IMG/VR virus record: IMGVR_UViG_3300045135_002615
Location: 62,001-126,000 of that record
Strand: one strand, 5' to 3'
Length of the DNA stretch: 64,000 nt
From: a virus
Both the position numbers and the translations under genes were made by a program. Below the pieces are notes generated by a model that saw only the letters and a list, made by a program, of their open reading frames with translations, was not told where the DNA came from and searched no databases. Numbering within the stretch: the stretch's first letter is position 1; each line of letters opens with the position of its first letter. This document shows, piece by piece, positions 13,691 to 42,954 of the stretch.

Positions 13691-14524
13691 TCAGATGACC
13701 TTCACCTTGTAACCCTTACGCATGAGATACTTAACAACACGCTCCTTAAGAGCCTTCATGTGGGTTTTATGCTGGGTCAAGCTGTCTTTGTAGATGTTTC
13801 CGGTGACTGAGATCGTTTGCTTAGAAAGCATGACCCACAGTATAGATGGCGGATAACTAAACGCCTTGTTCGCCAATATGAACCCAAAATGATTATTTGC
13901 ATCTGAGAGCTCAAGCACACCTCCCTGTAGGGCTTTTTTTGCATGAAGATCATCAATAGCCTTATAAATAGCACCCTCTTGACCCAAGGAGGGCTGCCAA
14001 CGTGAGCTAGGGTCAAACCCGTTGCGTACCCTGACCATATAAGGGGAGGACAACTTTGAGACAGTCTTCTCATAAGGCGAAGGACCAAAGAAACCTGCGG
14101 TCTTTTTGACTGAAGAGACACGGAGGGCTTTCTTTAGGGTGAATGCCATGTCTTTGAAAGAGTTAAGGGACGCCTCTTTGGATACCTTAAACTCATATTT
14201 TTCCATGAGCCTTATAACTGCGACAGATAAGTTGCCTCGATTTAACCAAACTGCCCCATTTGTATATTCAATGCTATAGGGCAGTCCCTCGTTAACCGTT
14301 GATTGAGGAGCAACCTTAATAAGGTACCTTATTGCGTCCACTCCCCTTAGCCCCCTTTTATCAATGTCCTTATCTGGACTAGGGACGTAAATGACCTCAT
14401 ATACAGGTAGGTCACCAAGCGTGCTCTCAATATTCTCTTTTCTTCCAAAGATCGCCTCTTTCTCAAGCTCTGCGATACGAGTTTCAAGTTGGGCGATTTT
14501 CTGACTTGCTGTTAAGTGTCTCAT
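13691..14524 (-). CDS. tagged protein with shared MRHLTASQ N-terminus (copy 1)
   Basis: This 277-residue protein begins MRHLTASQKIAQLE followed by RIAELEKEAIFG, the N-terminal tag also found at 19662, 21007 and 42954. The tag has a heptad-like spacing of Ile and Leu and would form a short helix or coiled coil. The remainder (about 25-277) is a mixed alpha/beta protein I do not recognise, with many Lys and Arg at the C-terminus. The start at 14524 is preferred because the other tag genes start at the same residue and AAGGAG lies upstream. I infer that the tag is a targeting or cleaved propeptide, so the body may be packaged in the head and injected. Confidence 0.6.
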   Translation of the reverse strand: MRHLTASQKIAQLETRIAELEKEAIFGRKENIESTLGDLPVYEVIYVPSPDKDIDKRGLRGVDAIRYLIKVAPQSTVNEGLPYSIEYTNGAVWLNRGNLSVAVIRLMEKYEFKVSKEASLNSFKDMAFTLKKALRVSSVKKTAGFFGPSPYEKTVSKLSSPYMVRVRNGFDPSSRWQPSLGQEGAIYKAIDDLHAKKALQGGVLELSDANNHFGFILANKAFSYPPSILWVMLSKQTISVTGNIYKDSLTQHKTHMKALKERVVKYLMRKGYKVKVI

Positions 14525-14583
14525 GTGTACTCCTTCTATGTCTGTACCATGTGTAAACAAGAAGATAAAAGGAGTACAACATT
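14525..14583. promoter_or_regulatory. divergent start region with 10-bp inverted repeat
   Basis: TGTACTCCTT (from 14525) and AAGGAGTACA (ending about 14580) form a perfect inverted repeat around 36 bases. Each arm includes the Shine-Dalgarno site of one of the two divergent genes, so part of the symmetry is expected. The match extends beyond the AAGGAG core into TACA, which is more than two ribosome sites require, and may also be an operator. Confidence 0.35.
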
Positions 14584-14958
14584 ATGGGTGCAGGTATCAT
14601 GGTGAGATGCGGAGGTGAGGTTCTAATTCTCAAGAGAGCAAACTACAAAGAGGACAAGTATGCGGGCTATTGGAACTTCCCCGGTGGCACAGCAGATGAA
14701 GGTGAGACCCCATATGAAACCGCAGTCAGGGAGACTAGGGAAGAGATCGGGGTCTCCACCCCATATATCAAGATCGTTGACCATATAGGAGATCGCATCT
14801 ACACGATGTTCATCGGGCACGTCCCTATTAAGTTCAAACCAATCATAGATCATGAGCACACTGATTGGAGGTGGATACCAATCTCAGAAGTTAGTCATAT
14901 CGAGAATTTCCACCCCAAGGATAAGAGGCTCTTTGAGAGACTTAACGTGAGTTTCTGA
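14584..14958 (+). CDS. Nudix hydrolase
   Basis: This 124-residue protein contains a complete Nudix box from G35 to V57: Gly, five residues, Glu41, seven residues, Arg49-Glu50, then R-E-E-I-G-V. The glutamates bind Mg2+ and cleave nucleoside diphosphates linked to another moiety. NFPGGTADEGE just before and within the box is typical of the family, and the length is normal for a minimal Nudix protein. Phage Nudix enzymes can act as nucleotide-pool cleaners, ADP-ribose pyrophosphatases or mRNA-decapping enzymes; the substrate cannot be told from the box. Its 3' end overlaps the convergent gene by 17 bases. AAAGGAG lies upstream of the ATG. Confidence 0.9.
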   Translation: MGAGIMVRCGGEVLILKRANYKEDKYAGYWNFPGGTADEGETPYETAVRETREEIGVSTPYIKIVDHIGDRIYTMFIGHVPIKFKPIIDHEHTDWRWIPISEVSHIENFHPKDKRLFERLNVSF

Positions 14959-15439
14959 GCCTATGCTTAGCGATCTCTCTTGCGTTGTTGTCCATCTCAT
15001 GTGAGGTGGGTCCCCCCTCGGTTGTAAAGGGAAAAGATAATATCAGACCAACTACTGAACCGAGCTGACCTGAGCCAAGAAGGAGACCAATGCTACCTGT
15101 TACAGTGACGAGGATTGCAATAATGGCTATCACCGCTATGGTCGCATTACTTAGTTTAAAGGTTTGTCGTAGCGAGAAATAGAAGTGGTCCCAAAGTTTT
15201 TTAAATGATGATCTCTTGGGTGCCTCCTCTAGGATCTGCATGAACTTCTCATCTTTTCGGAGTTGCTTGATCTGCCTAGCTATATCCTCCTCCCTCGCTC
15301 CTTGAGCGACCTCCACCACCGACCGAGGTATCGAGCTCAGCACTTTAGGTAGCTCCTTCAGAAGGCTGAAAATCGCCTCTTTTTCCATTTGAGCAACCTT
15401 AGCATGGGCGACTCTTTGTATCATTGCTTGTCTATTCAT
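14942..15439 (-). CDS. small membrane protein with RVAxxxxAxMEKEA N-terminus
   Basis: This encodes 165 residues from the ATG at 15439, which has GGAGGTG upstream. It begins MNRQAMIQRVAHAKVAQMEK, a looser relative of the tag described at 13691 and of the N-terminus at 55813 (RVASLHLAKMQKRA). Residues about 35-95 are charged helix. About 105-140 are strongly hydrophobic (TIAVIAIIAILVTVTGSIG and GSVVGLILSF), predicting one hairpin or two membrane passes. It overlaps the Nudix gene tail to tail. A virion-ejected or host-membrane role is inferred from the N-terminus and the membrane segments. Confidence 0.55.
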   Translation of the reverse strand: MNRQAMIQRVAHAKVAQMEKEAIFSLLKELPKVLSSIPRSVVEVAQGAREEDIARQIKQLRKDEKFMQILEEAPKRSSFKKLWDHFYFSLRQTFKLSNATIAVIAIIAILVTVTGSIGLLLGSGQLGSVVGLILSFPFTTEGGPTSHEMDNNAREIAKHRLRNSR

Positions 15440-15499
15440 CTTGCACCTCCATATAGGACATATACATGGCAAGAGACATATAAAAAAAAATCTACTAAA

Positions 15500-16582: not shown

Positions 16583-16643
16583 GATTTATCTCCATCTTAG
16601 GGTTGGTCTACTGAGATTACCATAGCCTTGAAGGGTAGGCTTA

Positions 16644-16681: not shown

Positions 16682-19285
16682 ATGAACTTCTTAGACGCAT
16701 TGACACAAGTCAATCGACCCAACATCAGCCCTAAGCCTTGGATGGCAGAGTGCGAGCTTATTTTCGGAACAAGAGACAACCTCGACAAGTGCATTGACGA
16801 GTGTATCAACTCTCCTACAGGCTTCTATGGTCTTGACACCGAGACTACAGGTCTTGACACGCGAGTATTCAACGGAAAGACAAGAGACACCATCGTGGGC
16901 ATCTGTCTCGCCCCGACCAAAGACAAGGGCTACTACTTCCCTGTCGCCCATAAAGAGGGAGTAGAGCACAACATTCCATGGAGGATCATGGGTCCTGCCC
17001 TTGAGCGTCTGTTTGATGTGTCTGTTAAGGCTATCCCTATCTTCCACAACAGCTCTTTTGATATGGAGGTGTTGGAGTTCAACGGATTCACCAAGCAACG
17101 TCTAGGTGAGAAGCGTTGGGACTCTCAGGCAGGGTGGCACGACACCTATATCTTGCAGTATCTCCTCAACCCTCGTGAGAAGGGCGGGCGTGGTCTTAAG
17201 CACTTGACGAACGTCCACCTCAAGAGGGAGATGATCGAGCTCTATGAGTTGTTTGGCATGGATAAGAAGGGTAGTAACTTGAACTACTCTCAACTAGACC
17301 CCTCATGGGAGCCTTGTGTGTGGTACGCCGCGAGTGATGCCATGTGTACGCTTGGGCTCTTTGAGATCCTCTATGCCGAGTATACAAGTAAGCCTGAGCA
17401 TACCAACTTCATCTATGCGTTGGAGAAGTCCTGTGCTTCCGCTACGCGGTGGATGCACCGCAACAGGGTCTACATTGATAGGGACACCGCCCTGAGCTAT
17501 GCCCAATCGGGTCAGAAGCTGTGGTTTGACTCTCTCGTAGAGGTCTACGAGGGTGCGTCAGAGATCCTTGGGCGTAATATTATGCCCAACTATGTACGCA
17601 TCTTGAAGGGAGAGCTGAAGGGTATGAACCGCTTCAATCCCGATGAGGTCGAGGGTATGAGCTACAAGGTACGCCTCGATGAAGCTCGTAAAGAGGCATT
17701 ACGCTTACACCCTGACCCTACAGAGGTGCTCACTAAGTCTGTCCCATACATTGACCGAGATGCAGGTACGGAGAGTGTTGAGTTCCCCTTAGTCTATGAC
17801 ATCATGTCACCACAGCAGTTCGGTCTGCTTTTGAGAGAGTTGGGTGTACCTGGCTTGAAGGCATCTGAGAAGTCGGGTCAAGTGGTCACGTCTAAAGATG
17901 TGATTGAAGTCGTGATCAAAGAGGCGAGTGAGACTTTCCCCTTCATGAAGAAGGTTAAGACCTTCCGTGAGCTAGGTAAGGCTATGGGTCAATACCTCAT
18001 CCCCTTCGTGGAGGATGTGGGTCCCGATGGGACACTCAAGCCCAAGTTTGATCAGTTCGCTGCCGATACGGGTCGCTTCTCATGTAAGACAAACAGCAAG
18101 CCTTGGAAGGTGCTTGATGGTGGCTGTCGTGTACCCTTTCAAGGTATTCCTGCGACCTATGATCCTAACAAGCCCGAAGCTATCGCCAAGATGCGTAAGT
18201 GTGTAGCTGTTAGAAACCCTGACTATTGGCTCGCGGCGATTGACTACGCAGGTGTAGAGTTAAGGCTCGTCACCAACTTGAGCGGTGAACCTCTATGGGA
18301 AGATGCCTTCTTCCGTTGTTCGGAGTGTGGTAAGGATTACCCTAAAGACATTCAAGAGGATGGATTTGCGGAAGCCCCTCCTGCGATCTGCTCATGTGGG
18401 TCGGATAAGATCGGTGATCTCCACACGATCACGGCGGTAGCCTTTTATGGAGAGGGAGCTAAGAAGCAAGACGATTGGAAGAAGCTCCGTGGTAACGGCA
18501 AGTCCTGTAACTTTGCTCTCTCTTATGGAGGTACGGGCAAGGCGGTACAGAGGTCTATTAAGGGTTGCTCAGCAGAGGAGGGTGAGGAGAAGTACAAGCT
18601 CTTTACCAAGACGTACAAGACGTTGACTGCGTGGTGGGCTCAGCAACACGCTTTTGGGCGTAAGCATGGTTTTGTAAAGACGGGCTTAGGTAGGGTTCAG
18701 CCCCTCCCTGACATCAACAACAAGAAGGAGTTTGGTCTCCGTTCTAAAGATGAGCGTAAGGCAGTTAATGGACCTGTACAGGGTACGAGTGCCGACATTA
18801 CTAAGCTCGCCATGAGTCTGATCTACAAAGCGGTCAAGGAGCGTGGTTGGGAAAACAAGCTCATGATGATCTTGACGGTACACGATGAGATTGTGTTTGA
18901 GATTCACAAGGACATCTTGAAGGAGGGTATTGAGCTACTCTGTGAGTTGATGACCCGTAATGAGGCGGTCAAGCGTATGAAGTGGCCTGTACCTTTGCTC
19001 GTAGACGTAGAGCTAGGTAAGGATTGGACAGTCCCTTACGACCTCAAAGAGATCAGAGAGGGCGAGGGGGATCCTGAGCTAGTCAAAATCTTTGGTGGTG
19101 TAAAGCCTTCGGAGAAGCCTGTTGAGGAGGAAGCTCCTAAGCAGGAGAAGCCGAAGGTGGACACACTTGAGATTGACGAGTTGACTGCGGATAGTGCGGT
19201 CAAGGTGGCGATGTGGGTTAGGGAGAGAGAGGGAGAGTGGGACGTGATCTATAGTGGGAGATCAGTCAAGGCACTACTCGTTTAA
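16682..19285 (+). CDS. polA: family A DNA polymerase with 3'-5' exonuclease and zinc-ribbon insert
   Basis: The 867-residue protein has exonuclease motifs DTETTGLDT (about 52), HNSSFDMEVLEFNG (about 121) and YAASDAMCTL (about 215). The polymerase motifs are motif A, DYAGVELRLVTN (about 520), motif B, KSCNFALSYGG (about 607), and motif C, VHDEIVFEI (about 734). There is no 5'-3' exonuclease domain, as is common in phage PolA. Between motifs A and B lies an insert with CSECGKDYP and ICSCGSDK (about 545-575), four cysteines in a zinc-ribbon pattern that ordinary PolA lacks. The C-terminal 60 residues are an acidic Pro/Glu/Lys linker plus a small domain. It is the replicative polymerase by inference. 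The ATG follows a CGGAG site. Confidence 0.97.
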   Translation: MNFLDALTQVNRPNISPKPWMAECELIFGTRDNLDKCIDECINSPTGFYGLDTETTGLDTRVFNGKTRDTIVGICLAPTKDKGYYFPVAHKEGVEHNIPWRIMGPALERLFDVSVKAIPIFHNSSFDMEVLEFNGFTKQRLGEKRWDSQAGWHDTYILQYLLNPREKGGRGLKHLTNVHLKREMIELYELFGMDKKGSNLNYSQLDPSWEPCVWYAASDAMCTLGLFEILYAEYTSKPEHTNFIYALEKSCASATRWMHRNRVYIDRDTALSYAQSGQKLWFDSLVEVYEGASEILGRNIMPNYVRILKGELKGMNRFNPDEVEGMSYKVRLDEARKEALRLHPDPTEVLTKSVPYIDRDAGTESVEFPLVYDIMSPQQFGLLLRELGVPGLKASEKSGQVVTSKDVIEVVIKEASETFPFMKKVKTFRELGKAMGQYLIPFVEDVGPDGTLKPKFDQFAADTGRFSCKTNSKPWKVLDGGCRVPFQGIPATYDPNKPEAIAKMRKCVAVRNPDYWLAAIDYAGVELRLVTNLSGEPLWEDAFFRCSECGKDYPKDIQEDGFAEAPPAICSCGSDKIGDLHTITAVAFYGEGAKKQDDWKKLRGNGKSCNFALSYGGTGKAVQRSIKGCSAEEGEEKYKLFTKTYKTLTAWWAQQHAFGRKHGFVKTGLGRVQPLPDINNKKEFGLRSKDERKAVNGPVQGTSADITKLAMSLIYKAVKERGWENKLMMILTVHDEIVFEIHKDILKEGIELLCELMTRNEAVKRMKWPVPLLVDVELGKDWTVPYDLKEIREGEGDPELVKIFGGVKPSEKPVEEEAPKQEKPKVDTLEIDELTADSAVKVAMWVREREGEWDVIYSGRSVKALLV

Positions 19286-19662
19286 ATGAAAATCCCATCC
19301 AACCTCCTGACGTTGGTTTTGTTTTGGAGTTCACGTTTTAACTCACGAGCAACTCTCTTAGGATTTGAGGCATAAGTGAGTTGCAACCAATCAACCCTGA
19401 TTGAAAATGAAGGGTCATTCCTACCAATGACTTCAACTTGCATATCAGCTTCTCTCCCCTGACTGTCAGTCAGCTCATATTTGACGTAGTAACCTCCGTG
19501 GGAATAAGAGTTCTTAAGGTTTATCTGCTCAACCTTATAACCTTCGTCCTCAAACACCTTCTCAATATCCTTTAAATATCTTAGGGGGTGTGCTTTTTTC
19601 TCAAGACGAGCGATACGGGATTCGAGGTGGGCGATTTTCTGACTGGCTGTTAGGTGTCTCAT
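19282..19662 (-). CDS. tagged protein with shared MRHLTASQ N-terminus (copy 2)
   Basis: This 126-residue protein begins MRHLTASQKIAHLE and RIARLEKKA, the same tag as at 14524, 21007 and 42954. The body is a small alpha/beta domain of about 100 residues (DIEKVFEDEGYKVEQINL; YVKYELTDSQG; FSIRVDWLQL) that I do not recognise. The start at 19662 rather than 19668 is chosen because AAAGGAGG abuts the earlier ATG and stands six bases from this one, and the tag genes all start at MRHLT. Its stop overlaps that of the convergent polymerase gene. It may be a packaged effector, by inference from the tag. Confidence 0.6.
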   Translation of the reverse strand: MRHLTASQKIAHLESRIARLEKKAHPLRYLKDIEKVFEDEGYKVEQINLKNSYSHGGYYVKYELTDSQGREADMQVEVIGRNDPSFSIRVDWLQLTYASNPKRVARELKRELQNKTNVRRLDGIFI

Positions 19663-19728
19663 GAACATCCTCCTTTAGATTGGTTATGACTTGGGTACGA
19701 TAAAAGAACTATCAAAGGAGTGGACAAC

Positions 19729-20925: not shown

Positions 20926-21006
20926 ATGGTCGTTTAAGGATGGCTATGCAGTGATAGTTACTTTATATCTCCACCTCAACCAACACAACCCATAAAGGAG
21001 ATGTCC

Positions 21007-21891
21007 ATGAGACACCTAACAGCTAGTCAGAAAATCGCTCAGCTTGAAAACCGTATCGCCCACCTAGAGAAGCAAGCCTTCCTAGAAGGCATCCAACAAA
21101 AAGTCTCAGCTTGGATTGAAGCCAAGCTACCCTATAAGAGAGAAGTGAAGAAGGCAGTTCTTTCTGAGTACTCTATCAGGGACATGAAGAGTGCTGAAAA
21201 AGCAGCTAAATATGTGGTGAGGGATCTTAAAGATCCTCATCACATGACCGCCCTCAGCATGATTGTGAAGTCCGAGTCTACGTTCAAGGGTCGAGTGGAG
21301 ATGGCTCTCAATATTAAGAATCACCCTGAGATGTTTGAGGGGCGTACAGCGTCAGCGTTTGCTGTTGCCGCGTTGAGCGTAACAGCGTTACTTGTGGGTG
21401 TTGTTTGGACCTCGATTAAGCAGGTGTTCCGCCTTGCGTCACACAATAAGCAAGGCGGAATTCCCGTGATCGTGGGTGTCATCATCTCCATTTTGGGAGG
21501 TGTCGCTTTTCATGAGCTTCTTCTGACTCCTGAGAAAAAAACAAAAGAGATTGGGCACGCCATCTCAAGGGGTTTGATCGGTGAGCTCCCCGGAATTAAA
21601 TCAATAGAGAAGGTCTCAGAGAACATGGATGAGGTGGTCATAAAACTTGAGATTGCAGACACAGCAATGAAATACCCTACCGACATAGCTACTTTTTATC
21701 TCACCTTTGATACAACAAAGGATTATGTTTTCGTTGAAAACAGCTACATCAACGGGATAGCAGGGACATATGAAAATGTTTTAAAGAAGCTAGAGTCTCC
21801 AAGAGTTGAGGCTGAGTTGAGAGAAAAAATTAAGATTTGGGAAGATGACGATATTTTTCTTGGGCGAGATGACGATGACATGTCCATATAG
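21007..21891 (+). CDS. tagged membrane protein with shared MRHLTASQ N-terminus (copy 3)
   Basis: The 294-residue protein begins MRHLTASQKIAQLE and RIAHLEKQAF. After a charged helical region come two membrane segments at about 115-137 (AFAVAALSVTALLVGVVW) and 152-174 (GIPVIVGVIISILGGVAF). A soluble C-terminal domain ends in an acidic tail (WEDDDIF, DDDDMSI). AAAGGAG touches an upstream in-frame ATG and stands six bases from the ATG at 21007, matching the start of the other tag genes. The combination of tag and membrane segments suggests a protein carried in the virion and delivered to the host membrane, an inference to be tested. Confidence 0.65.
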   Translation: MRHLTASQKIAQLENRIAHLEKQAFLEGIQQKVSAWIEAKLPYKREVKKAVLSEYSIRDMKSAEKAAKYVVRDLKDPHHMTALSMIVKSESTFKGRVEMALNIKNHPEMFEGRTASAFAVAALSVTALLVGVVWTSIKQVFRLASHNKQGGIPVIVGVIISILGGVAFHELLLTPEKKTKEIGHAISRGLIGELPGIKSIEKVSENMDEVVIKLEIADTAMKYPTDIATFYLTFDTTKDYVFVENSYINGIAGTYENVLKKLESPRVEAELREKIKIWEDDDIFLGRDDDDMSI

Positions 21892-31428: not shown

Positions 31429-31621
31429 TGGGGTCTACCTTCCTGTTGGCTTGTTGCTCTTTGAGCTGTGTCTGAACTCTCTCAAGGGCATGTATCTGAG
31501 ACTGAACTTGACGAGCTTCCTTCTCATAGTAGTCCTTGAGAGCAATCAAGTTGCTCACAAAGTCCCCTAGCTGAGTACCCTCAAGGTTTGGTCTCTCTGA
31601 CTCACTCTTCCAATCACTCAT
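31421..31621 (-). CDS. small coiled-coil protein between two structural genes
   Basis: These 66 residues (MSDWKSESERPNLEGTQLGD...) form one long predicted helix with heptads (YYEKEARQVQSQIHALERVQ) and a polar tail. It overlaps the giant gene upstream by four bases and the 807-residue gene downstream by eight, so all three are translated together. A chaperone or small connector for the neighbouring giant proteins is a reasonable guess. Confidence 0.55.
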   Translation of the reverse strand: MSDWKSESERPNLEGTQLGDFVSNLIALKDYYEKEARQVQSQIHALERVQTQLKEQQANRKVDPNG

Positions 31622-34600
31622 ATGATGTCCTCCAACGCTGTTAGGTCAGGGTTTTGATAGTCGATCCTATCCATGCGAGGTAAAGTACCTGTCACTCGGT
31701 TCGTCCTCGTATTAATCCATGCATACCTCTTACTCCTCATACCCATAGAAGAGATACCATTCCCTATGAGCGTAACCATACCCTCAAAGAGTGTATGCCC
31801 TTGAGCCTCAAGCTGAGGGTCTTCAACAAGTAGCCTACGATCCGTTAAAGACAGCATTGTGTCCGTGTAAGGGTACGGAGGCTCATGCGGCGTCAAAACC
31901 CCAAAAATCAGGTCATTAGATGGGTGTGTGGGGTCGTTCTCACCTACAAGGTAAATAGAGTCTGTCTGCTCATACGCAGCCCATGTCAAAGGTAGAGGCA
32001 CAAGTTGATTAAACAGCCTTACCCTCTCAGACCATGACAATACTCTCTCCCTGAAAAACAACACAACCTCCGCTAAGTTTCGATCAAGCAAGTCTCTCCT
32101 CTTAAGGATGCGATAAGAGAAGGGCTCTATGCTGTCTGAGCTTGTAGTGTATGTCCCATTGTCGATAGGAGAAGTCACCCTCAAAGGGTTCGAGGTGTCC
32201 CCATCTACAGAAGGTAGGAATATCTCATGTGGGTTTGAACTACCTGAGATAAACTCAACCGTCAAAGATGACCCGTCAACACTAATGACCCTATAGGATC
32301 CCCTGTTGTCATCTAAGGTGTTCGGCTGACCCACACCTAATGGTCCATCGCCTTGTGCAGGAGCACCCCTCTCTAATGGGGCACCCTCAAGAGCTCCTTG
32401 AGGGTCTATCACGAGATAATAATCTGAAGGTGTACCCGTGATTAGCTCAGAGAAGTCTACACTAGTGTCTTCAAGAGTATTCTCCGTAGGCACACGAGCT
32501 GTGGAACTATAGATGAGATCAAAACCATGCTCAAGGAACTCGTTGAAGCTCTGCTCTTGGGGGATCAAGTGTGTTCTTGTAGTCACCTTGAAAGATACCA
32601 TGTCACCATTAGGGTCACCCGATAATGAGATGCCTTTAGCTGAACCTGGTGTAGCCTCAACAATCTTCATCTTGAAGACCTCATCACTTGAGCTGTCGTA
32701 CATAGTGATGTAGTCACCAACCTTCAAGGCTTCATCAAAGTCACCCACTTGAGTGTCCTTGCCCCCTAGTGCCTCTACACCAAAGACATCAACCTTCTTA
32801 GAGGTGAGTGTATAGACGCCATCTGTGAAACTAAGATGGTCAACCAAACCTACCTTCTGCTCATAGAGGTTTTTGAGACCAAGTAGTGAGTTCAACATCT
32901 CAAGCATGATGCGAGAGAACCTCCTGAGCCTACGCACCTTGATCGTACTCACCTCTGTGAATGTCCAAGCAGGTAAGTTACCTAACCCAACTTCATCAGC
33001 AAGTGATCTTACTTGAGAAGTCCCATCATTAAACACCTTTGGTGTCGTACCCCTATAGTCTCTCATTAAGCGAGGGAATGCTCGATCAAGATGGATCGCT
33101 GCTTCCGCCGTGATGGTCAGAGTAAAGCTATCATTAGGCGTTAAGAACCCTTGCCCATAGGTGTTCCCTTGAGGCGTGTCTTCTATCGTAGGGAAGATAG
33201 ACTCCCATGAACCGCCTACTAAATTAGATGGGAGTAAGAGAGCTCTCATGATGCCCTCCTCATCCCTCTCAATATAACTCTCATCTACCGTGACGGATAC
33301 GGACAAACCACCCGCTAAGGTGAGGTCAATGGTTAATGGACTAGCTAATGAAGTTGGGACTTCATAAGGGAGCAAGCCTGTAGCCAAGAAGTTAAAAGGA
33401 ACCTTGTGGATGCCACAAACGACTTGACCACCTGACCCAATAACACTGTTCATCTGTTGGTAGGTGAGCTCCTCTACCTGGTTAGAGTCTACGTTGCCAT
33501 AAGTGGGGTTCTCAGTGCCATTGGCGGATGAGAAGGTGAACGTCATCGAACCGCCATTGATCGAGTCATACTTCAAGCGGATGTAAGACCGATAGAACAC
33601 TTCATCGAAGCTATTGTTCTGTGTAGACGCAGGCTGAGTCAGGTAGTTGTCATTCAAGAGGATGATGGCTTCCATCAAGCCCGACCCATTGTAGTAAAGA
33701 CTCAAGTCGCTGCTGTCTGTCACAAGCGTACCTGTACCATCACCATTATCGAGTACCTCCACTACAGTGGGGAACACTACAGGCAAGATATCGCTAGAAC
33801 CAATCTGCTCTGTGTATGTGGCACTTAACGCTGAAGGGGTTATCCTCTTGACTCGATGAACACCCGCGTTGTGACCTCGCTCAATATAGACCAAGTCACC
33901 CTCTTCAACATTAGCTAATGAACCTTCAAAAGACACAAGGTTCGTCAACTCAGCCGGGGCGGAGTCTGTTGTACCTGTTGGGTCAATCCTGCCATATTCA
34001 CCTGAACCAATGAAGATGACCTCTCCATCTCGAACCTCAGCACCTACAAACAAAGACATAGGATCGTTGGTTCGCTCAATGTCAAAGAGACTCCTTACCC
34101 TCAAGGTGTTGGCGTCAATCACATCCCATGCCTCACCTAGTCGAATATGAGAGTATCCGAAACGACTAAAGGCGTTAGCATAAGACTCAATAAGCTGTGT
34201 TCCTATGCCCCCATACTGCCATACGTTCATTAGTGACCCGTAGACATAGAATAGTGGTGTCACATCTAATGGGGCGACACCACCTCCCGCTGCCAATAAC
34301 ACAGAGGGGTCGGTGTCTGATTGTATCCATGTTGTGAAATCAGCATCTGCATCATAGAAGCTCAACCTGTCCGAGAGGACATACGAGTTAGTATTCAACC
34401 CGAACCTCATGTCGATGCGATAGTTCAAGAAGAAGTCAATAGAGAGCGTCCTCGTGTTTACCCCAATATCCGCAGTCACATCGAGGTCGATGAGGTCTGT
34501 CCATAACGTGTTAGTGATCCATGTCTCATAACCATTAAAAGGCCACTGAGGTTCCTCAGCTAAGGTCAACACATTAGGGATAGGTTGTTGGAGTACGCCA

Positions 34601-37600
34601 ATCGAGGTGGCGGAATAAGACACCGTCAAAATGTTAGTCGCAACCTCAACCACACCCGTAGGTGAAGTCGTTGAGACAATCCATGACGCCCCGTCATACC
34701 TGAACGTGATCTTGTAATGGAACTCATAAGTGGTTGGGGCATACACATGAAGGATGAACGTGCCATTAGTGTTGAACACCTTGTCCATGATGTCCCCTAC
34801 GGGAAAGCCATTACTGAACTCAAACTCCACCAACGACTGATCCCATTCAGAAGTAGCCACGTTGAAGATGAGCGTCTCTTGGAACGTCACACCCGACCCT
34901 AGACCCGAAGGCAACATGTGTACTTGAGCGTTCAAAACCTCATATGAAGCACCATCACTCGGTGTCTCAAAGAAAGGTGGACTCAACTGAGCCCCATCTA
35001 TAGACATGAGCTCCATGATGCCCGTTGCCCCACTACCATCTACCCCACTGTCATCTGGACGAAGTAGAATCAAGTCCCCCTGTCTAGGGGTCTGTTCAAT
35101 GAAGCCATTAAGGTTAGAGAAATCCTCAGATGTCACAAGATGACCACCCGTGATCTGTGTCAGATCATCACGAACCTCATCTGGGTACTCGTACTCTAGC
35201 TCACCTGAATACAAGTTCAACGTCTGTGCTGACCCCGCTTCAAAGTTGGGTTGTATCCCCTCTAATACCTCACGCTCCCCTAGCGTATTCAAGTAAGGGA
35301 GATCATGGTCTCCTGCGTCACATACATCAAGACCCTTGAGAGCAGGATACTCAAAAGGAGAGGTGTTCGTATTGTTGAACGTCACAATACCCTGTAGGGG
35401 AGCATACGCTTCCGGTACGTTCTGACCCGTCAGCTCTTGAAGGGGCCAACTTGGTTCACTCAAGCTCGGTAATGAGATGTCATAAAGCTCCCCCGTTGCT
35501 GTGTTCAACCCTACATCAACTCCGATGCGGAACGTAGAAGGTTGAGCATCAGACTCATCAAGGTCTGCTCTGTAGGAAAGAGCAAGTGTATCCCCCCTCT
35601 TGGGTACATATGTGTAAAGGTCATCCCCGTTGATCGAATACGAGGAAGGCACTCCATTAAGCACCACAAGACACCCTTGATATATCGCACCCACCCTAGC
35701 TGTCTTATATGCTGAAGCACCATCGTAAACAGCCAACTCCGCCTTGTTCAAAAGATCATGGAATACACCATCCACGCTGATCTTCAGCTTATCACCGACA
35801 CTCAACCCTCCAAAAACATGACTAGGGTCACCCGTCAATACATCAGGCGTATCTCCACCGTAAGTGATGAACTGAGAGACATCAGGATAACCTGTAGTAG
35901 AGTCTATCGGAAAGCTCTGTAGTTCCACCGCAGATAAAATGAACGTAGGCTTACCCGCTGACAATGGCTCAAAGTCCGCAAAGCCATCTCGTGAGTAGTT
36001 TACAATCCTGAATCGAGCGGGGCGGCGGGCTAACGTAAGTGAGGTGATGTCTGTAATCCGACCTTGTGCGTCATTCCCAACAAGGGCGATCACGCTGCCA
36101 TTAGTCGTTGAGTCTAAGTCACCTGGTACTCGGTAGGTGTAGTACTCTGTCCGCTCATTAAACAAGCGACTATAAATACTAGGCTCTGAAGCCCTCGCCC
36201 AACGAGCAACATAAGGGGAGACAGGCACTCCCGTAGTGAAGTCAAACACCCTAGACCTGTCCCAACCTACCATCAAGTAGTCGTCTATCTCGTTCTCCAC
36301 CAATGAACCCTGATCTTCCATCAAGGCTGTAAGCTCTCTCACATCATTGACCGACATGGGATCACTAGGCAACATATACCCTTGCTCTAAAGCACGAGCC
36401 GCCAACACTACATAACGAGGATACACCTCCATCGTTAATGGATCCTCAAAACCCGCTCCTCCCCAATCACCTGCTATCGGAAGCTCAAACTTGAACTGAC
36501 CATCATAGTCCCCAACCAAGCTCCCTGTTGCTGTTGAAAGCACACTATCTAAAGGTCTCAAGTACCCGTCATACTCCCGTATGCGATCTCTCGCCACAAA
36601 GTCATCCGCCAACAAGTCATACAGACCAAGCCCCACCCCCTTAAAGGTCTGTTCCGTAGCTACGCTCTTACCACTCGTAGTCCTTGACCTCAAAGACTCC
36701 GCCTTCAAGCGACTCGCCACAATAGACCCATATACACCCTTGTCCATAATCGTCACTTGGAACGTGTCCGGTGACTCAACTACACAACCTGCCGTCACGG
36801 GCAACCCCGTATAATCCGTAGGTACCCTCCTCTCCGTATAGCTCACACTATATCTAGGATAACTGACACGACCCCCCGCCACTTGAATAGGACTCAATAC
36901 ACCCCTTGCTGTGTGAAGGAAGTAATACTGATCACCTCCTACTACACCATCTACCAGCTCAACCTCACCCTCCCTTAACTCATAGTCACGACCCTCGATG
37001 AGTAGCGTAGCTACCCCTCCACGGTACCTAAGCAACTTGTAATCAATACCCACCACAGAGGTCGATAGGCTCAAGACCTTGTCTCCCTCAAAATAAGACG
37101 CCCTCAAGCTCACCAATAGACGAGTACCCGATGAGGTGTATGAGTGTGCCCTCACCTGACCCTCTGCAACCAAGATCGTCACACCCTCCTCTACCCTGAC
37201 CGTAGACACCCTGTAACACACACCATCCGTGATCACTAATGAGCCCGATCCCATTAACGGACTCAAGTCACCACTCAATCTCAACTCCGTACCCCGTGCT
37301 ACCGACTCTACACGCACCCCCTCAACCTGTCTAAATGATGAACGGAGCTCATACCCGTCATACACTACAACAGGTACGTTCAGCACATCAAAGCTCTCTG
37401 CCTCTAATGAACTCAGCGGCGTTGGACTCAAACCAACTTCACTCGCAGTAACGGAAGTCACAAAGAACTTTGAGAACCCTATAGAGATCAAATCACCCAC
37501 TGACACTCTGTCTCTCACGTCTACAGGACAAGTCATCGTTGACACACCACTCGACAACGAGAACTTCGGAACCTCAACTCCCGAAGACAACCTCAACACA

Positions 37601-40347
37601 CTCTCACCACCTAATGAACTCGTCACAAAGTAGCTCACATACACATTAGAACCCGTCACATCACTCGTGAACGTGACCTCCTCGTTGGTGAAGCTATACC
37701 CACTAGCTAATGAAGCCCCCACATATACGGCGAGGTCTCCAATAACTTCACGACCCTCACCATTGTAAGACCACTTGTACCCATTGATGGACTCCGCTGG
37801 CTCATCCACAATCGAGAACAACAACGTCTCCGTAACACGCTCATCAGATCCCAACGGAAAATAACTCGCCTCTACCCCAACACCACTCCTTAAAGGCTCC
37901 CTAAACCTTATCACCCCTCGGCTCGCCTCATACCTGATGTCACTAACCTCCTCTACAAGCTCATCATAAACACCCGTTAGAGAAGCCCCGTTGATGTCAC
38001 ACTCCGCATGATCTAACCCCGCTAAGGGAAGACGCCTCAAGAGAACTACACCTACCCAACTAGAGTCCTCTATCCCATCTAACTTAAATACCACATACCC
38101 ATCTACCACCTCGAAACTCTGACCACCTTGAGCTACTCCCTCTGTGTACTCCATATCATCTATCAAAAGCACATATGAACCACCCAACACATGTGCGTCA
38201 CCACCCACATAGTACGGGGCTTCAATACGCTCATCCTTCAACACCACTAATGGAACTAATGAACCCCCTGAAACCCTCACACTCAACGTGTCTAAACTAG
38301 ACACCAAACCTAAGTCTAAATCCCCGTCTATACCATAGACCTTGTAGACCTTCAATGCGTCTCCCGCACTCACCTTCTCAAATACCTCCCCTACTAAACG
38401 GGTCATGTCAGGTGTCTCCTCCGCTACATAACCCTCTCGATAACCCCTATACGCTTCCCAACTAGAACCCGACTCTAGTGTACCCCCCGACACCACAACA
38501 CTCAACCCCAATACAGACTCGATACGCACATACGACTCTCCATCCGTCAACCAATCCCCTGAACGTAGCCCTTCTACCTCTACATCTAACTCTACAGACC
38601 TCTCCCCCGTCACCACAAAAACCTCCCCTCCACCTAACCTCTCTCCATATACACTCTGTAGACTCAACACTCCACCAACGCCCACCTCATAGTCCCGACC
38701 CTCCACCAAAGTCTGAGACCCCGCTCCCTCTACATACACACTCAAGGTACTCGTACCCGATAACACACCCGGTGAACTACTCAAGAGACTCGTAGCCTCC
38801 TTCACGTCACCCTCTAACGTACCCGAACCTATCCACTCAAAACCATTCGGCACCTCTCCAAACCTGTAGCTAACCTCAACCCCCTCTACAAGATCCCTGT
38901 CCCCAACCTTGAAGTGCTTACCATACCCATATACACCCACCATGTCTAAACGAGGCTCAAAGTTCAATACCTGATATGTCGAGACACCACTCACCTGACC
39001 CACAGCCTCATCGTCAAATGAATAGTAACCCACCACCGAAGGACTCGTTAAGTCCAACCTTAAACCCAACTCCGTGTGCGGCACTAAACCCAACTCTCCT
39101 AACACAACCCTCTCCCCTATCGTAGGATAACTCACCTCCGCTCCCACTACCAAATGACCCCTCGTGTCTATATACGCATCTCCTCCAACCACTACCCCAT
39201 CTAACAACTCCACCATCGACCCATTGACCAACCTAAATGAACCACTCACTTGACCCACTGGTAACAACGAAACCAATGGATTCATATACACACAACCCAC
39301 TGAACTACCCACCGCACCCACTTCCAATGACTCCTCATAGTCCCCCTCCCCATTAACTAACCAACCCGTGCGGTCACTTAACGCCCACACTAAACCACTA
39401 CCATTCGGTCTCTCCCCCGTTGCCTCCCCAATAGGCTCAATACCACTACCATCAGGTACTGAGATACGCTCCACTAACCCTACACTATCCTCCCCCAACA
39501 CAAGACCCTCATACTCATAAATAACACCCTCCTCCCCAAGCAACTCACCCGTCAATAAATCTACTTGTACCTCTCCCCTACGCACAGCTCCAAACGAACC
39601 CTCTACATACACTACATCTACATAGCCCTTACCCTTCTCTCTCAAGAGAAGATACTCATGACGTAAAGGCACTGGGCTTAACCTATCCCCACTCACCACA
39701 CTCTCAACCCCTAAGAGCTCATCACTCACATAGATGGCACTACCCGATAACCCCTTTAAAATGCCCCCCTCCACATAAGCCACTACTCCCGAACTCTCTT
39801 CTAATGGTACATCCTCACTCCCTATCAAGTACACCCCATCTAACGTGTGTAACTCCCCACTCGTACCCACCTCGTCCCCATTAGATACCTCCACTCCCTT
39901 ACCACCACCCTTCAAAACCCAACGACCTCCCTTGTACTCGAACCTTGTACGCACCGCGTCATTCTGAGTCCACCAAAAACCCATACGCCCTATCGTAGCC
40001 ACCGCACTACTCAAGCCCGCTTGATCACTCTCAATCACCGTACCCCCATACAAAATACGCAACGCTCCCGTTACACTCTCTACTACACCATCCCTTAAAC
40101 CCGTAGCATAGTAATAGAGACCTCCCACCTCCTCTATGTACGTCAACGTGATCTCCCTCTCCCCACTCCATACTGAACCATCACCCTTAGCTATCCATAA
40201 GACATCTCCAAGAGATCCTATCTCATACGCTACTCGACCCCTCACCTCTCCACCACCCACCACTCGGTTGTCTATACGCCTTAACGCAAGACCTGTCTCC
40301 TTGTCGTTCTTCTCCCCACTACGGACATCAAGTAATACTTTGCTCAT
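31618..40347 (-). CDS. giant beta-rich virion protein (2909 residues)
   Basis: This is the largest gene in the window. The ATG at 40347 (MSKVLLDVRSG) has GGAG eight bases upstream; the longer frame to 40392 lacks one. The N-terminal half is built of beta modules with a recurring theme, for example VEGRDYEVGVGGVLSL and IEGRDYELREGEVELV, like the V-x-G-x-D-Y-x-x-x-x-G-x-V-x-L modules common in large phage tail proteins. The C-terminal quarter includes a long mixed region with GSGGQVVCGIHKVPF. No enzymatic motif is seen. Base composition changes strongly along the gene: near 38.6 kb the coding strand has about 29 G to 2 C per 60 bases, near 32.1 kb 10 G to 17 C. Likely a tail-fibre-like or baseplate-peripheral protein. 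Confidence 0.7.
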   Translation of the reverse strand: MSKVLLDVRSGEKNDKETGLALRRIDNRVVGGGEVRGRVAYEIGSLGDVLWIAKGDGSVWSGEREITLTYIEEVGGLYYYATGLRDGVVESVTGALRILYGGTVIESDQAGLSSAVATIGRMGFWWTQNDAVRTRFEYKGGRWVLKGGGKGVEVSNGDEVGTSGELHTLDGVYLIGSEDVPLEESSGVVAYVEGGILKGLSGSAIYVSDELLGVESVVSGDRLSPVPLRHEYLLLREKGKGYVDVVYVEGSFGAVRRGEVQVDLLTGELLGEEGVIYEYEGLVLGEDSVGLVERISVPDGSGIEPIGEATGERPNGSGLVWALSDRTGWLVNGEGDYEESLEVGAVGSSVGCVYMNPLVSLLPVGQVSGSFRLVNGSMVELLDGVVVGGDAYIDTRGHLVVGAEVSYPTIGERVVLGELGLVPHTELGLRLDLTSPSVVGYYSFDDEAVGQVSGVSTYQVLNFEPRLDMVGVYGYGKHFKVGDRDLVEGVEVSYRFGEVPNGFEWIGSGTLEGDVKEATSLLSSSPGVLSGTSTLSVYVEGAGSQTLVEGRDYEVGVGGVLSLQSVYGERLGGGEVFVVTGERSVELDVEVEGLRSGDWLTDGESYVRIESVLGLSVVVSGGTLESGSSWEAYRGYREGYVAEETPDMTRLVGEVFEKVSAGDALKVYKVYGIDGDLDLGLVSSLDTLSVRVSGGSLVPLVVLKDERIEAPYYVGGDAHVLGGSYVLLIDDMEYTEGVAQGGQSFEVVDGYVVFKLDGIEDSSWVGVVLLRRLPLAGLDHAECDINGASLTGVYDELVEEVSDIRYEASRGVIRFREPLRSGVGVEASYFPLGSDERVTETLLFSIVDEPAESINGYKWSYNGEGREVIGDLAVYVGASLASGYSFTNEEVTFTSDVTGSNVYVSYFVTSSLGGESVLRLSSGVEVPKFSLSSGVSTMTCPVDVRDRVSVGDLISIGFSKFFVTSVTASEVGLSPTPLSSLEAESFDVLNVPVVVYDGYELRSSFRQVEGVRVESVARGTELRLSGDLSPLMGSGSLVITDGVCYRVSTVRVEEGVTILVAEGQVRAHSYTSSGTRLLVSLRASYFEGDKVLSLSTSVVGIDYKLLRYRGGVATLLIEGRDYELREGEVELVDGVVGGDQYYFLHTARGVLSPIQVAGGRVSYPRYSVSYTERRVPTDYTGLPVTAGCVVESPDTFQVTIMDKGVYGSIVASRLKAESLRSRTTSGKSVATEQTFKGVGLGLYDLLADDFVARDRIREYDGYLRPLDSVLSTATGSLVGDYDGQFKFELPIAGDWGGAGFEDPLTMEVYPRYVVLAARALEQGYMLPSDPMSVNDVRELTALMEDQGSLVENEIDDYLMVGWDRSRVFDFTTGVPVSPYVARWARASEPSIYSRLFNERTEYYTYRVPGDLDSTTNGSVIALVGNDAQGRITDITSLTLARRPARFRIVNYSRDGFADFEPLSAGKPTFILSAVELQSFPIDSTTGYPDVSQFITYGGDTPDVLTGDPSHVFGGLSVGDKLKISVDGVFHDLLNKAELAVYDGASAYKTARVGAIYQGCLVVLNGVPSSYSINGDDLYTYVPKRGDTLALSYRADLDESDAQPSTFRIGVDVGLNTATGELYDISLPSLSEPSWPLQELTGQNVPEAYAPLQGIVTFNNTNTSPFEYPALKGLDVCDAGDHDLPYLNTLGEREVLEGIQPNFEAGSAQTLNLYSGELEYEYPDEVRDDLTQITGGHLVTSEDFSNLNGFIEQTPRQGDLILLRPDDSGVDGSGATGIMELMSIDGAQLSPPFFETPSDGASYEVLNAQVHMLPSGLGSGVTFQETLIFNVATSEWDQSLVEFEFSNGFPVGDIMDKVFNTNGTFILHVYAPTTYEFHYKITFRYDGASWIVSTTSPTGVVEVATNILTVSYSATSIGVLQQPIPNVLTLAEEPQWPFNGYETWITNTLWTDLIDLDVTADIGVNTRTLSIDFFLNYRIDMRFGLNTNSYVLSDRLSFYDADADFTTWIQSDTDPSVLLAAGGGVAPLDVTPLFYVYGSLMNVWQYGGIGTQLIESYANAFSRFGYSHIRLGEAWDVIDANTLRVRSLFDIERTNDPMSLFVGAEVRDGEVIFIGSGEYGRIDPTGTTDSAPAELTNLVSFEGSLANVEEGDLVYIERGHNAGVHRVKRITPSALSATYTEQIGSSDILPVVFPTVVEVLDNGDGTGTLVTDSSDLSLYYNGSGLMEAIILLNDNYLTQPASTQNNSFDEVFYRSYIRLKYDSINGGSMTFTFSSANGTENPTYGNVDSNQVEELTYQQMNSVIGSGGQVVCGIHKVPFNFLATGLLPYEVPTSLASPLTIDLTLAGGLSVSVTVDESYIERDEEGIMRALLLPSNLVGGSWESIFPTIEDTPQGNTYGQGFLTPNDSFTLTITAEAAIHLDRAFPRLMRDYRGTTPKVFNDGTSQVRSLADEVGLGNLPAWTFTEVSTIKVRRLRRFSRIMLEMLNSLLGLKNLYEQKVGLVDHLSFTDGVYTLTSKKVDVFGVEALGGKDTQVGDFDEALKVGDYITMYDSSSDEVFKMKIVEATPGSAKGISLSGDPNGDMVSFKVTTRTHLIPQEQSFNEFLEHGFDLIYSSTARVPTENTLEDTSVDFSELITGTPSDYYLVIDPQGALEGAPLERGAPAQGDGPLGVGQPNTLDDNRGSYRVISVDGSSLTVEFISGSSNPHEIFLPSVDGDTSNPLRVTSPIDNGTYTTSSDSIEPFSYRILKRRDLLDRNLAEVVLFFRERVLSWSERVRLFNQLVPLPLTWAAYEQTDSIYLVGENDPTHPSNDLIFGVLTPHEPPYPYTDTMLSLTDRRLLVEDPQLEAQGHTLFEGMVTLIGNGISSMGMRSKRYAWINTRTNRVTGTLPRMDRIDYQNPDLTALEDII

Positions 40348-40406
40348 ATCTCTAGCTCCACTCAGATGGTCAGACCATAGACTACCACCCACATAGATAA
40401 AATATC

Positions 40407-40979
40407 TCAGAACACCGATAACGATAACGGACTACTCAACGCAGCTCCACTACCCGCTCCCGCTATCACACCACTCACCGATACACCACTCATACCCAAC
40501 CATATACCCCTACCTATACCACTCGCTAAATCCCAAGCTCGCTCACCCCTCACCCCCTCACTTATCAATGAACCCCATATCAAGTCTTCTAAGTCACTCG
40601 ATGTACCCAATATACCAACCCCTACAAAACTACCCACCACCGCACTCTCACCCACTACATCGTACACACCCGCAACAGCCTCTCCAATAGCCCTAGAAAG
40701 AACGTTTACACCCATATCCTCACCTACCCCTAGACCCGCTCCTTTAAGGCTTAAAATGAGCTGTTCTGTTAAAGGTGGAACTATGAAGCTACCCTGAGCA
40801 TATCCTGTACCCGCTACTCCCGTTGCTATGACAGGTACTACCACTAAGCTACGCAGCCAATGATACAACCCCTTCTCTACACCTAAAGCAATCGCCCTAG
40901 GATAAGGAAGTCCTACCACCTCTGCCGTGATCGTGAGGTTCAACTCTATTCTCGATGATAAGGCTCCGTCTATTAGCAT
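40407..40979 (-). CDS. glycine/valine-rich protein leading the second structural block
   Basis: The 190 residues are low in charge and rich in Gly, Val, Ala and Ser (VVVPVIATGVAGTGYAQGS; GMSGVSVSGVIAGAGSGAAL), with hydrophobic stretches but no clear helix-length membrane segment apart from about 45-60. No family is recognised. It is the first gene of the minus-strand structural unit. On the coding strand it shares the extreme G-over-C composition of the following giant gene, so both seem to have evolved under the same bias. Confidence 0.5.
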   Translation of the reverse strand: MLIDGALSSRIELNLTITAEVVGLPYPRAIALGVEKGLYHWLRSLVVVPVIATGVAGTGYAQGSFIVPPLTEQLILSLKGAGLGVGEDMGVNVLSRAIGEAVAGVYDVVGESAVVGSFVGVGILGTSSDLEDLIWGSLISEGVRGERAWDLASGIGRGIWLGMSGVSVSGVIAGAGSGAALSSPLSLSVF

Positions 40980-41270
40980 ATGCTCTCACCTAACCCCATA
41001 GATGGTTCGTAAATAAAGTCTACCAAGTGCCCCCCCCCTACCCTCACTGACACTTAAATAGTTGTTGACACACCCACACACGAAGATGTGGTGGTATGTC
41101 GGTGTCTACAGGGTGACATACGCTTCGAGTATAAAAAGACTATTGAGAGTTAAACCGACACGAAAAATGAGAGCGTTGAGTTGAGTTGGGTTCTAAGGGT
41201 AGGTATTGGGTCAGTAGGTTATTTATATGCGTATGGTGTGTAGCCCCTTAGAACTATTGAGGAGAGAGAG
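40980..41270. other. divergent intergenic region with inverted repeats and strand-composition switch
   Basis: These 291 bases, the longest non-coding stretch in the window, separate two divergent units. They hold a run of eight C near 41029-41036, GTATGTC/GACATAC arms (about 41093-41120) and a perfect 10-bp inverted repeat GTTCTAAGGG (41190-41199)/CCCTTAGAAC (41245-41254). On the minus strand TATAAATA, the T4 late-promoter consensus, lies at 41227-41220 facing the structural block. C-rich plus strand to the left turns G-rich to the right, as seen at some replication origins. Promoter region is likely; an origin is speculative. Confidence 0.45.
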
Positions 41271-41687
41271 ATGGCTAAACACGCAGAGAGAGAGATGGGC
41301 TTATTGCCTATCATGAATCCGCTATACAACTTGAGAGAGATCTCGAAGCAGATGGCGTTATTGGAGGATCACTTGAATCACCCTCGCAAGAGGTGTCCTG
41401 ATTGTATTAGGAAGCACTTCTTGACGATAGAGGCATTATTTGAGGAGGCGGTATCCTTGGACAAGGAGGGTAAGTATGTGGAGTTGCTTGATGGCAAGGC
41501 ACAGGAGATGAGAGATTTACAGGGGGCGTGGCTTGACGGCAGGGATGGTAGGGATGCGGACAAGGTATATATGGTAATAGCTCAGGGTATCCGTGCGATG
41601 CGTAAGGAGTTTGCCCCTATGTGTTTTGATGTGCGTAAGTTGGCTTCGTTGAGGGTAGCGAGCAGGTATCTTCTTAGGCGGAGGTGA
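41271..41687 (+). CDS. conserved-looking small phage protein with CPDC motif
   Basis: The 138 residues include NPLYNLREISKQMALLEDHL, a CPDCIRKHFLTIEALFEEA block and the C-terminal SLRVASRYLLRRR. I have a sense of meeting the CPDC-x-RKH-F-x-x-IEALxEEA pattern in other large phages but cannot name a function. The two cysteines could form half of a zinc site. The C-terminal RVASRYL recalls the RVAS-type N-termini of other proteins in this window. GAGGAG lies upstream of the ATG. The gene stands alone between two minus-strand units. Confidence 0.6.
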   Translation: MAKHAEREMGLLPIMNPLYNLREISKQMALLEDHLNHPRKRCPDCIRKHFLTIEALFEEAVSLDKEGKYVELLDGKAQEMRDLQGAWLDGRDGRDADKVYMVIAQGIRAMRKEFAPMCFDVRKLASLRVASRYLLRRR

Positions 41688-41697
41688 GTGGGGTTTC

Positions 41698-42954
41698 TTA
41701 GTATCTTCTTCTTAGGCGAGAATCCTGACGGCTGAACCCTTTAGGGAGGGTAGCACCTGTGAGATCAGCTCCACTGAGGTCTGCTCCACTGAGGCCAGCG
41801 TGACTGAGGCCAGCGTGACTGAGGTCTGCTCCACTGATTTTAGCGTATTCAAGGTCAGCGTGACTGAGGTTAGCATCATTGAGTTTAGCCCCATTGAGTT
41901 CAGCACCATTGAGTTTAGCCCCATTGAGTTCAGCCCCATCGAGTTTAGCCCCTTTGAGGTTAGCTTCACTGAGGTTAGCTTCAATGAGCTGAGCATCATA
42001 GAGTTTAGCTTTAGTGAGGTTAGCACCATTGAGATAAGCTCCTGTGAGATCAGCATAACTGAGGTCAGCCCCACTGAGGTCAGCTCCTGCGAGTTTAGCT
42101 TTAGTGAGGTTAGACCCCATGAGGTAAGCCTTAGTGAGCTTAGCCTTAGTGAGGTTCGCCCCTGTGAGTTTAAACCTAACGAGGTTAGTTCCACTGAGGT
42201 CAGCGTGACTGAGGTTCGCCCCATTGAGTTCAGCCTCATAGAGTTTAGCCCCTGTGAGTTTAGCCCCTGTGAGATCAGCATCTGTGAGATCAGCCCCCTC
42301 AAGGTTGGCTCCACTGAGGTCAGCCTTACTGAGATCTGCATCTGTGAGGTCAGCCTTTCTGAGATCAGCACCCTTGAGGTTAGCGTTATTGAGCTCAGCA
42401 TCTGTGAGATCAGCTTCAGTGAGGTTAGCCCCACTGAGATCAGCCTTACTGAGCTTAGCTCCTATTAGGTCAGCCCCTCTGAGATCAGCATCTGTGAGAT
42501 CAGCCTTACTGAGATCAGCGTTATTGAGATAAGCATCTGTGAGATCAGCCCCTCTGAGATCAGCACCCTTGAGGTTAGCGTTATTGAGCTCAGCGACAGT
42601 GAGATCTGCATCAGTGAGATCTGCATCAGTGAGGTCAGCCTTTGTGAGGTTAGCCCCTCTGAGGTTAGCCCCTCTGAGCTTAGCCCCAATGAGCTTAGCC
42701 CCAATGAGATCAGCCTTACTGAGCTCAGCCTCACTGAGATCAGTCCAACTGAGATCAACACCACTGAGATCAGTCCAACTGAGGTCAAGACCACTGAGGT
42801 CTTGACCTGAGAAGTCTTTCTCCCCCTTAGCGAGTGCCTCCACTAGGGACTCCCTAGTGTGCTTAAGATTGCCCTTTAGGGAGGCTTGCTTCTCTAGATG
42901 AGAGATACGGTTTTCGATTTGAGCGATTTTTTGACTGGTTGTTAAGTGTCTCAT
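41698..42954 (-). CDS. pentapeptide-repeat protein with MRHLTTSQ tag (copy 4)
   Basis: The 418 residues start MRHLTTSQKIAQIE and RISHLEKQAS, the shared tag. From about residue 45 to 405 they consist of roughly 70 pentapeptide repeats of the form A-(D/N)-L-x-x (ADLTDADLSKADL and similar), then a basic tail ending RLRRRY. Pentapeptide repeats fold into a square beta-helix. Some members (Qnr, MfpA) mimic DNA and inhibit gyrase; others are of unknown role. At this length the helix would be about 17 coils, longer than Qnr. The repeats are also near-identical at DNA level, so the gene is prone to expansion and contraction. Combination with the tag suggests a virion-carried protein. Confidence 0.85.
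   Translation of the reverse strand: MRHLTTSQKIAQIENRISHLEKQASLKGNLKHTRESLVEALAKGEKDFSGQDLSGLDLSWTDLSGVDLSWTDLSEAELSKADLIGAKLIGAKLRGANLRGANLTKADLTDADLTDADLTVAELNNANLKGADLRGADLTDAYLNNADLSKADLTDADLRGADLIGAKLSKADLSGANLTEADLTDAELNNANLKGADLRKADLTDADLSKADLSGANLEGADLTDADLTGAKLTGAKLYEAELNGANLSHADLSGTNLVRFKLTGANLTKAKLTKAYLMGSNLTKAKLAGADLSGADLSYADLTGAYLNGANLTKAKLYDAQLIEANLSEANLKGAKLDGAELNGAKLNGAELNGAKLNDANLSHADLEYAKISGADLSHAGLSHAGLSGADLSGADLTGATLPKGFSRQDSRLRRRY

Follow-up and report, generated by a model that had tools for sequence, protein, structure and literature searches.

The DNA analyzed in this study is a window of 64,000 bases corresponding to bases 62,001-126,000 of the 296,642-base virus record IMGVR_UViG_3300045135_002615 (coordinates without a prefix refer to this window). 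It harbors four genes starting at positions 14524 (-), 19662 (-), 21007 (+) and 42954 (-), whose products were described in a first-pass annotation as sharing a common N-terminus, hereafter called the tag. All four proteins begin as claimed, the tag comprising residues 1-24 in each case. Protein A (277 residues; 13691-14524, minus strand) starts with MRHLTASQKIAQLETRIAELEKEA (14453-14524, minus strand), whose end is a [KR]xA triplet followed by isoleucine (KEA|I); no family matched its body. Protein B (126 residues; 19282-19662, minus strand) carries the tag MRHLTASQKIAHLESRIARLEKKA (19591-19662, minus strand) ending with KKA|H in front of a body of approximately 100 residues without a confident family. 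Protein C (294 residues; 21007-21891, plus strand) begins with the tag MRHLTASQKIAQLENRIAHLEKQA (21007-21078, plus strand) and belongs to a family of membrane proteins that other tagged phages encode as well. The tag of protein D (418 residues; 41698-42954, minus strand), MRHLTTSQKIAQIENRISHLEKQA (42883-42954, minus strand), is followed by serine (KQA|S) and precedes a pentapeptide-repeat body (PF00805, expectation value (E) 2e-114). A check for a known cytoplasmic domain revealed that the tags of the four proteins lie outside all Pfam matches, and the sole PHROG match centred on the tag was obtained at E 0.065.

The number of four tagged genes turned out to be too low. While the first 15 bases of the four genes match ATGAGACACNTAACA, a pattern that occurs six times in the complete record and not once in the backward control, a protein profile of 29 positions gave 21 matches in the genome, eight of them at E < 1e-14. 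In 19 cases the matching segment opens the protein; the other two matches, both weak, lie at C-terminal ends. The bodies attached to the tag in this genome include two of the pentapeptide type, several membrane proteins, a family of three tandem paralogues, each approximately 320 residues long, and numerous small proteins lacking a family. Within the tag, the residues are spaced in a heptad-like manner (I-3-L-4-I-3-L) with conserved E and R. For two tagged families AlphaFold2 predicted a helix in the tag and bodies of low confidence; in protein C the helix begins at residue 6, and residues 1-20 are the best-modelled part of the protein (predicted local distance difference test (pLDDT) 78-87).

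The phage is a jumbo myovirus, as baseplate families are encoded in the window, and a tail sheath-like gene was read by eye in another stretch of the genome. The head genes map beyond the window, to approximately 213-219 kb of the record. They include those for a protease, for a long acidic protein that occupies the scaffold position and for the major capsid protein, as well as a decoration-like gene. The protease was identified because of its PHROG matches (head maturation protease, E 6e-15) and its synteny; a Pfam scan assigned no family to it. The capsid gene product matched the PHROG major head protein (E 1e-51) and is 88% identical to its counterpart in LR745208.1 (485 kb), 47% to that of Tunturi_5 and 38% to that of phage G. 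Relatives of this capsid protein are encoded on 516 IMG/VR stretches, 80 of which, with capsid identities of 90-97%, were kept for comparison; a near-identity search of the phage collection matched nothing. The 2.6 kb that follow the capsid gene contain two tagged genes and a gene for 84 residues (L007:6963-7217, plus strand). The latter, directly behind the capsid gene and equipped with a late promoter, has a tag-like helix (SQIVRNLERRVARLEKSSR) at its C-terminal end instead of its start. The scaffold (L007:3391-5037) contains EF-hand-like loops (DLDGDDLISRDEW) that scored under the curated cut-off, and at 63 scaffold loci of the clade it possesses a near-invariant C-terminus, KTLGNISREAS..DELSKLWESAPDVSKFFG, which could be the end that binds the capsid. 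An origin of the tag by copying of a scaffold helix (in this phage, PTQRLARLERLAS) was considered and dropped, as the likeness is loose and not conserved clade-wide.

Among the relatives, 15 of the 18 searched gave matches to the tag profile, and six of the larger records (capsid identity of at least 94%) contained 32, 30, 16, 13, 11 and 8 matches per record. In total we gathered 123 tagged proteins, which fell into 79 body clusters by BLAST, 61 of them singletons. With the exception of a few paralogue groups, BLAST showed no relationship between the bodies; that one module sits on many unrelated bodies is fully borne out. Pfam and PHROG searches with the 79 representatives left almost all of them without a family, except for one WGR-domain and one pentapeptide protein, and disclosed no family common to more than one of them. 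The tag consensus differs by phage group (MRHLTASQKIAQLE.., MRQLTAS.., MRRSASEIIRNLE.. and MISQKLASLE..). It reads MRHLTASQKIAQLENRIAHLEKQA in this phage and MRQLTASQKIA.. in its nearest relatives, MRRSASEIIRNLE.RIARLERQA in G006, G007 and G009, MRTASEVLRSLEARIARLE in G010 and MISQKLASLEARIAKLE in G016. Against annotated phages the tag produced chance matches only (E 7-9), and LR745208.1, Tunturi_5 and phage G, which are less closely related, lack it.

The first-pass annotation had attributed the likeness of the first 70 or so bases to the duplication of a module. The attachment of such a module to many bodies was corroborated, whereas recent copying was not, since the six tags beginning with MRHLT differ by 1.07 synonymous substitutions per site (dS) and only 0.10 nonsynonymous ones (dN), which indicates that they are kept alike by selection at the protein level and not by fresh duplication; residues 31-50 of the same proteins are 9% identical. 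Within genomes, the dN/dS ratios of the tags were 0.09 in this phage and 0.19, 0.20, 0.20, 0.27 and 0.44 elsewhere, at dS values of 0.65-1.17 and with 5-9% identity in residues 31-50. Thus, we concluded that the tags are old copies maintained by protein-level selection. As a profile and a pattern served to gather the tagged set, the conservation of LE and R is partly built in, but the substitution pattern is not. In the family of protein C, 16 tag positions are invariant at a whole-protein identity of 21-34%. A functionless leftover of repeated gene duplication, in which start region and promoter were copied together, would account for the similar first 70 bases and the similar promoters. We consider it highly improbable in view of dN/dS ratios of 0.09-0.44 at a dS near 1 on unrelated bodies, and of a tag that is conserved between phages whose tagged bodies differ.

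The acidic scaffold contains repeated Lys/Arg-x-Ala-Ser sequences. In protease and scaffold of this phage [KR]xAS occurs 15 times, compared to 1.0 expected from shuffled sequence. Corresponding values were 14 versus 1.0 in the relative G001, 6 versus 0.6 in the scaffold of LR745208.1 and 4 versus 0.5 in that of Tunturi_5; the control pattern [KR]xSA was not enriched. Sixteen non-redundant scaffolds together gave 125 sites versus 12.5, placing [KR]xAS among the two strongest patterns of its form. In the tagged proteins, [KR]xA[SG] was detected 61 times within the first 20 residues past the tag helix (3.35 expected), and still 35 times when one protein per body cluster was counted (1.99 expected), while residues 20-80 past the helix showed a low background rate. 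Thirty-two of the 61 sites reside at the helix end and 29 at an offset of 1-18 residues, where 3.2 were expected. Phages whose residues immediately past the helix deviate from the motif often have a site slightly further on (six of seven in G016). This variable distance argues for a protease site rather than a fixed coiled-coil position; conservation of A24 as nothing more than a heptad position would not account for the 29 sites at offsets 1-18. Sites of this type also occur within the bodies of the phage's own proteins and of those of its relatives. In a tagged family of 12 members (28-52% identity to the first member), most members have the tag followed by [KR]xA[GS], and in a second, KTAS-type [KR]xAS close to the C-terminal end, A and S do not vary. 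In tandem tagged paralogues of approximately 320 residues (L066:3726-6666, plus strand, and relatives), a [KR]xAS close to the C-terminal end is invariant, and both ends of these proteins look as if they were propeptides, by analogy with T4 Alt. Thus, the tagged proteins share [KR]xA[SG] with the scaffold and the protease of the same phage, and we infer that cleavage may occur there.

The data also bear on the possibility that the tag is a short coiled coil by which the proteins, late in infection, pair among themselves or bind a single hub in the cytoplasm or the membrane, with neither packaging nor cutting. Its heptad-like spacing with conserved E and R, the predicted helix and the several membrane-protein bodies would suit such a role, but a coiled coil leaves unexplained why [KR]xA[SG] stands behind the helix at a variable distance, why the same motif occurs in scaffold and protease, and why it is invariant near the C-terminus of a diverged tagged family. 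We regard this explanation as unlikely. Cleavage motifs of other phages were rare near the helix end: the T4 motif [LI]xE was present in 6 of 123 tags, and SxE and AxE, the sites of the phiKZ/SPN3US type, in 8 each. Inside whole tags AxE was found in 65 cases, mostly by virtue of a start of the MRRSASE type.

Most tagged genes are preceded by TAATAGTTTATTTAT or a more relaxed version of this motif, approximately 30-60 bases upstream of the start. In the window this late-type promoter motif was identified in front of gene B (TGATAGTTCTTTTAT; 19700-19714, minus strand; 37 nucleotides upstream; 17.6 bits), gene C (TGATAGTTACTTTAT; 20952-20966, plus strand; 40 nucleotides; 14.5 bits) and gene D (TTTTAATTTATCTAT; 42989-43003, minus strand; 34 nucleotides; 9.7 bits). 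The pattern exists 12 times in the genome and is missing in the reversed control. A matrix built from 17 sites of tagged genes of other phages was used to scan part of this phage's genome and yielded 43 sites scoring at least 8 bits, where 14 were expected, and 25 scoring at least 11 bits, where 4.6 were expected; a gene start lies within 220 bases for 33 of the 43. The sites precede the operons for protease and scaffold, tail sheath and baseplate, the decoration and capsid genes, a large block of tail genes and numerous tagged genes; none was detected in the scanned stretches before the DNA polymerase or other recognisable replication genes. Tagged genes possess the promoter more frequently than others (8/15 versus 19/107, p = 0.005), and so do untagged genes with an N-terminal [KR]xA[SG] compared to those without (7/12 versus 12/95, p = 0.0009). 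The motif TAATAGTTYNTTTAT, which reads unlike a plain sigma-70 promoter, marks this regulon, whose members are head, tail and tagged genes, throughout the genome (e.g., 12331-12345, minus strand; L007:5053-5067, plus strand; L067:478-492, plus strand).

A promoter common to head and tail operons would also be compatible with an uncleaved peptide docking the proteins to the head interior, the neck or the tail, all the more as about 80% of the head proteins of SPN3US stay uncut (PMC10052503). The accumulation of the motif behind the helix and its strong enrichment in scaffold and protease speak against a docking peptide of this kind, which we judge to be rather improbable.

We therefore favor the assumption that the tag is a capsid-targeting propeptide, predicted to be cut by the prohead protease at [KR]xA|S/G, which delivers a variable cargo to the virion. 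On the evidence of the genes, we deem this whole reading probable and have greater confidence in virion association taken by itself. During late expression, the amphipathic helix of 18-20 residues (core I..LE.RIA.LE) would dock the proteins onto the growing prohead core. After assembly, the prohead protease would cut just past the helix behind [KR]-x-A, mostly before S or G, and would thereby free the body inside the head, the scaffold being degraded by the same enzyme at like sites. The bodies would be accessory virion proteins, numerous and rapidly changing as a set, that remain in the head with the DNA and are probably ejected with it into the host. Several points weigh against this assumption. 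The phage is uncultured, and the partner of the helix is putative. It was in the scaffold that [KR]xAS was initially noticed by eye, though the tagged proteins form a separate test. Near the helix, the strict form [KR]xA[SG] is present in only 54-55 of the 123 tags, compared to 99 with [KR]xA, so that the residue behind the cut would need relaxing. LR745208.1 and Tunturi_5 have a motif-rich scaffold and no tag, which indicates that the motif is independent of the tag. Finally, only 8 of the phage's own 15 tagged genes exceed the promoter threshold, and since the promoter is also located before tail genes, late expression is no proof of a location in the head.

A known system of similar design is that of T4, whose internal proteins carry a capsid-targeting sequence of approximately ten residues that is common to diverged proteins and is removed by gp21 (PMC9026906, PMC5694885). 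As in IPI-IPIII and Alt of T4, a short N-terminal segment is attached to unrelated bodies and the cargo varies between related phages; the promoter motif in common with the protease/scaffold and decoration/capsid operons would fit late genes as in T4, and removal by the prohead protease is here predicted from the genes. Alt loses both of its ends (PMC9026906), and the tagged family of 12 members appears to be cut at both ends as well. In contrast to T4, the tag is a coiled-coil-like helix of 18-20 residues without sequence likeness to the ten-residue signal, the candidate site is [KR]xA|S/G instead of [LI]xE|, and 10-30 cargo genes per genome are scattered on both strands, whereas T4 has a handful. 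Thus, the tag most probably resembles the T4 signal in its working without being homologous to it or a member of the T4-type family. The first-pass annotation, which had proposed an unrelated equivalent of the T4 signal, was hence confirmed in its observation and partly supported in its interpretation: in its favor are a candidate cleavage motif that scaffold and protease also contain and a promoter that precedes head and tail operons as well, and the packaging itself we infer.

In phage P1, the first 30 residues of DarB suffice to carry a reporter into the head, and the N-termini of the Dar proteins have no common consensus (PMC9024508), whereas such a consensus is the main feature here. Among giant-phage head proteins, an identical N-terminus on diverged bodies has been described for gp53 and gp54 (PMC5694885), and the propeptides of SPN3US head proteins are mostly 111-254 residues long and cut after AxE (PMC10052503). 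The giant phages SPN3US, phiKZ and 201phi2-1 are similar in that many head proteins possess N-terminal propeptides, but the tag is only about 24 residues long and lacks a conserved AxE at the helix end. Herpesvirus assemblin cuts the scaffold between Ala and Ser. This A|S core agrees with the motif found here, while Lys/Arg two residues before Ala is particular to this phage clade, and no Pfam match connects the phage protease with assemblin. No paper in the literature collection searched describes the tag.

Some further genes of this phage were noticed. A fifth, weaker tag-like N-terminus (MEHRIASLERRLG...RGAS) belongs to the gene at 56969-57646 (plus strand), whose product contains four [KR]xA[SG] sites. 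A second N-terminal motif, R-V/L/Y-A-S/A-x-H-M/L (e.g., KRVASLHLAKMQKRAG), different from the tag, was detected at four places in the genome and at a weak fifth by a profile built partly from its own matching genes. These genes are located at 55813-56880 (minus strand; late promoter, N-terminus MANSKRVASLHLAKMQKRAG), 60446-60994 (plus strand), L007:15326-17326 (plus strand) and L007:17885-18994 (plus strand). Several of them combine the late promoter with a [KR]xA[SG] site, and the motif may represent a second class of head-targeting end. The promoter motif TTATAGTTTCTTTAT (12331-12345, minus strand; 20.8 bits) lies upstream of an untagged late gene for 575 residues (10562-12289, minus strand) with two N-terminal [KR]xAS sites (KMAS and KRAS); together with the baseplate genes behind it, this gene is a morphogenesis operon with the same promoter signal. 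Another such motif, CAATAGTCTTTTTAT (41131-41145, minus strand; 15.9 bits), is situated upstream of the gene block 40407-40979 / 31618-40392. An untagged pentapeptide-repeat protein with a late promoter (G000:C1:134609, minus strand; L273) starts with MRQRKASSHTI, a bare N-terminal [KR]xAS. The 964-residue product of L066:6945-9839 (minus strand) was read by eye as an intein-bearing DNA-binding protein, and its PHROG DNA-binding matches lie solely near the C-terminal end.

For the widespread aquatic jumbo-phage clade represented by the 516 IMG/VR stretches, the chances seem to us evenly balanced that a helical label specific to each phage, the prohead-protease code [KR]xA|S/G particular to the clade and the late promoter form a genome-wide address system by which any gene could become virion cargo, each particle bringing 10 to more than 30 different proteins, mostly uncharacterised, into the host. 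If the proposed function of the tag is true, sequence alone would suffice to read out which proteins an abundant clade of uncultured phages packages and probably injects, and dozens of uncharacterised proteins would gain a common predicted fate. The tagged bodies would then provide candidates for proteins that take over the host early or act in counter-defence, and the tag would represent a second, independently evolved capsid-targeting code besides that of T4, with a testable cleavage rule.

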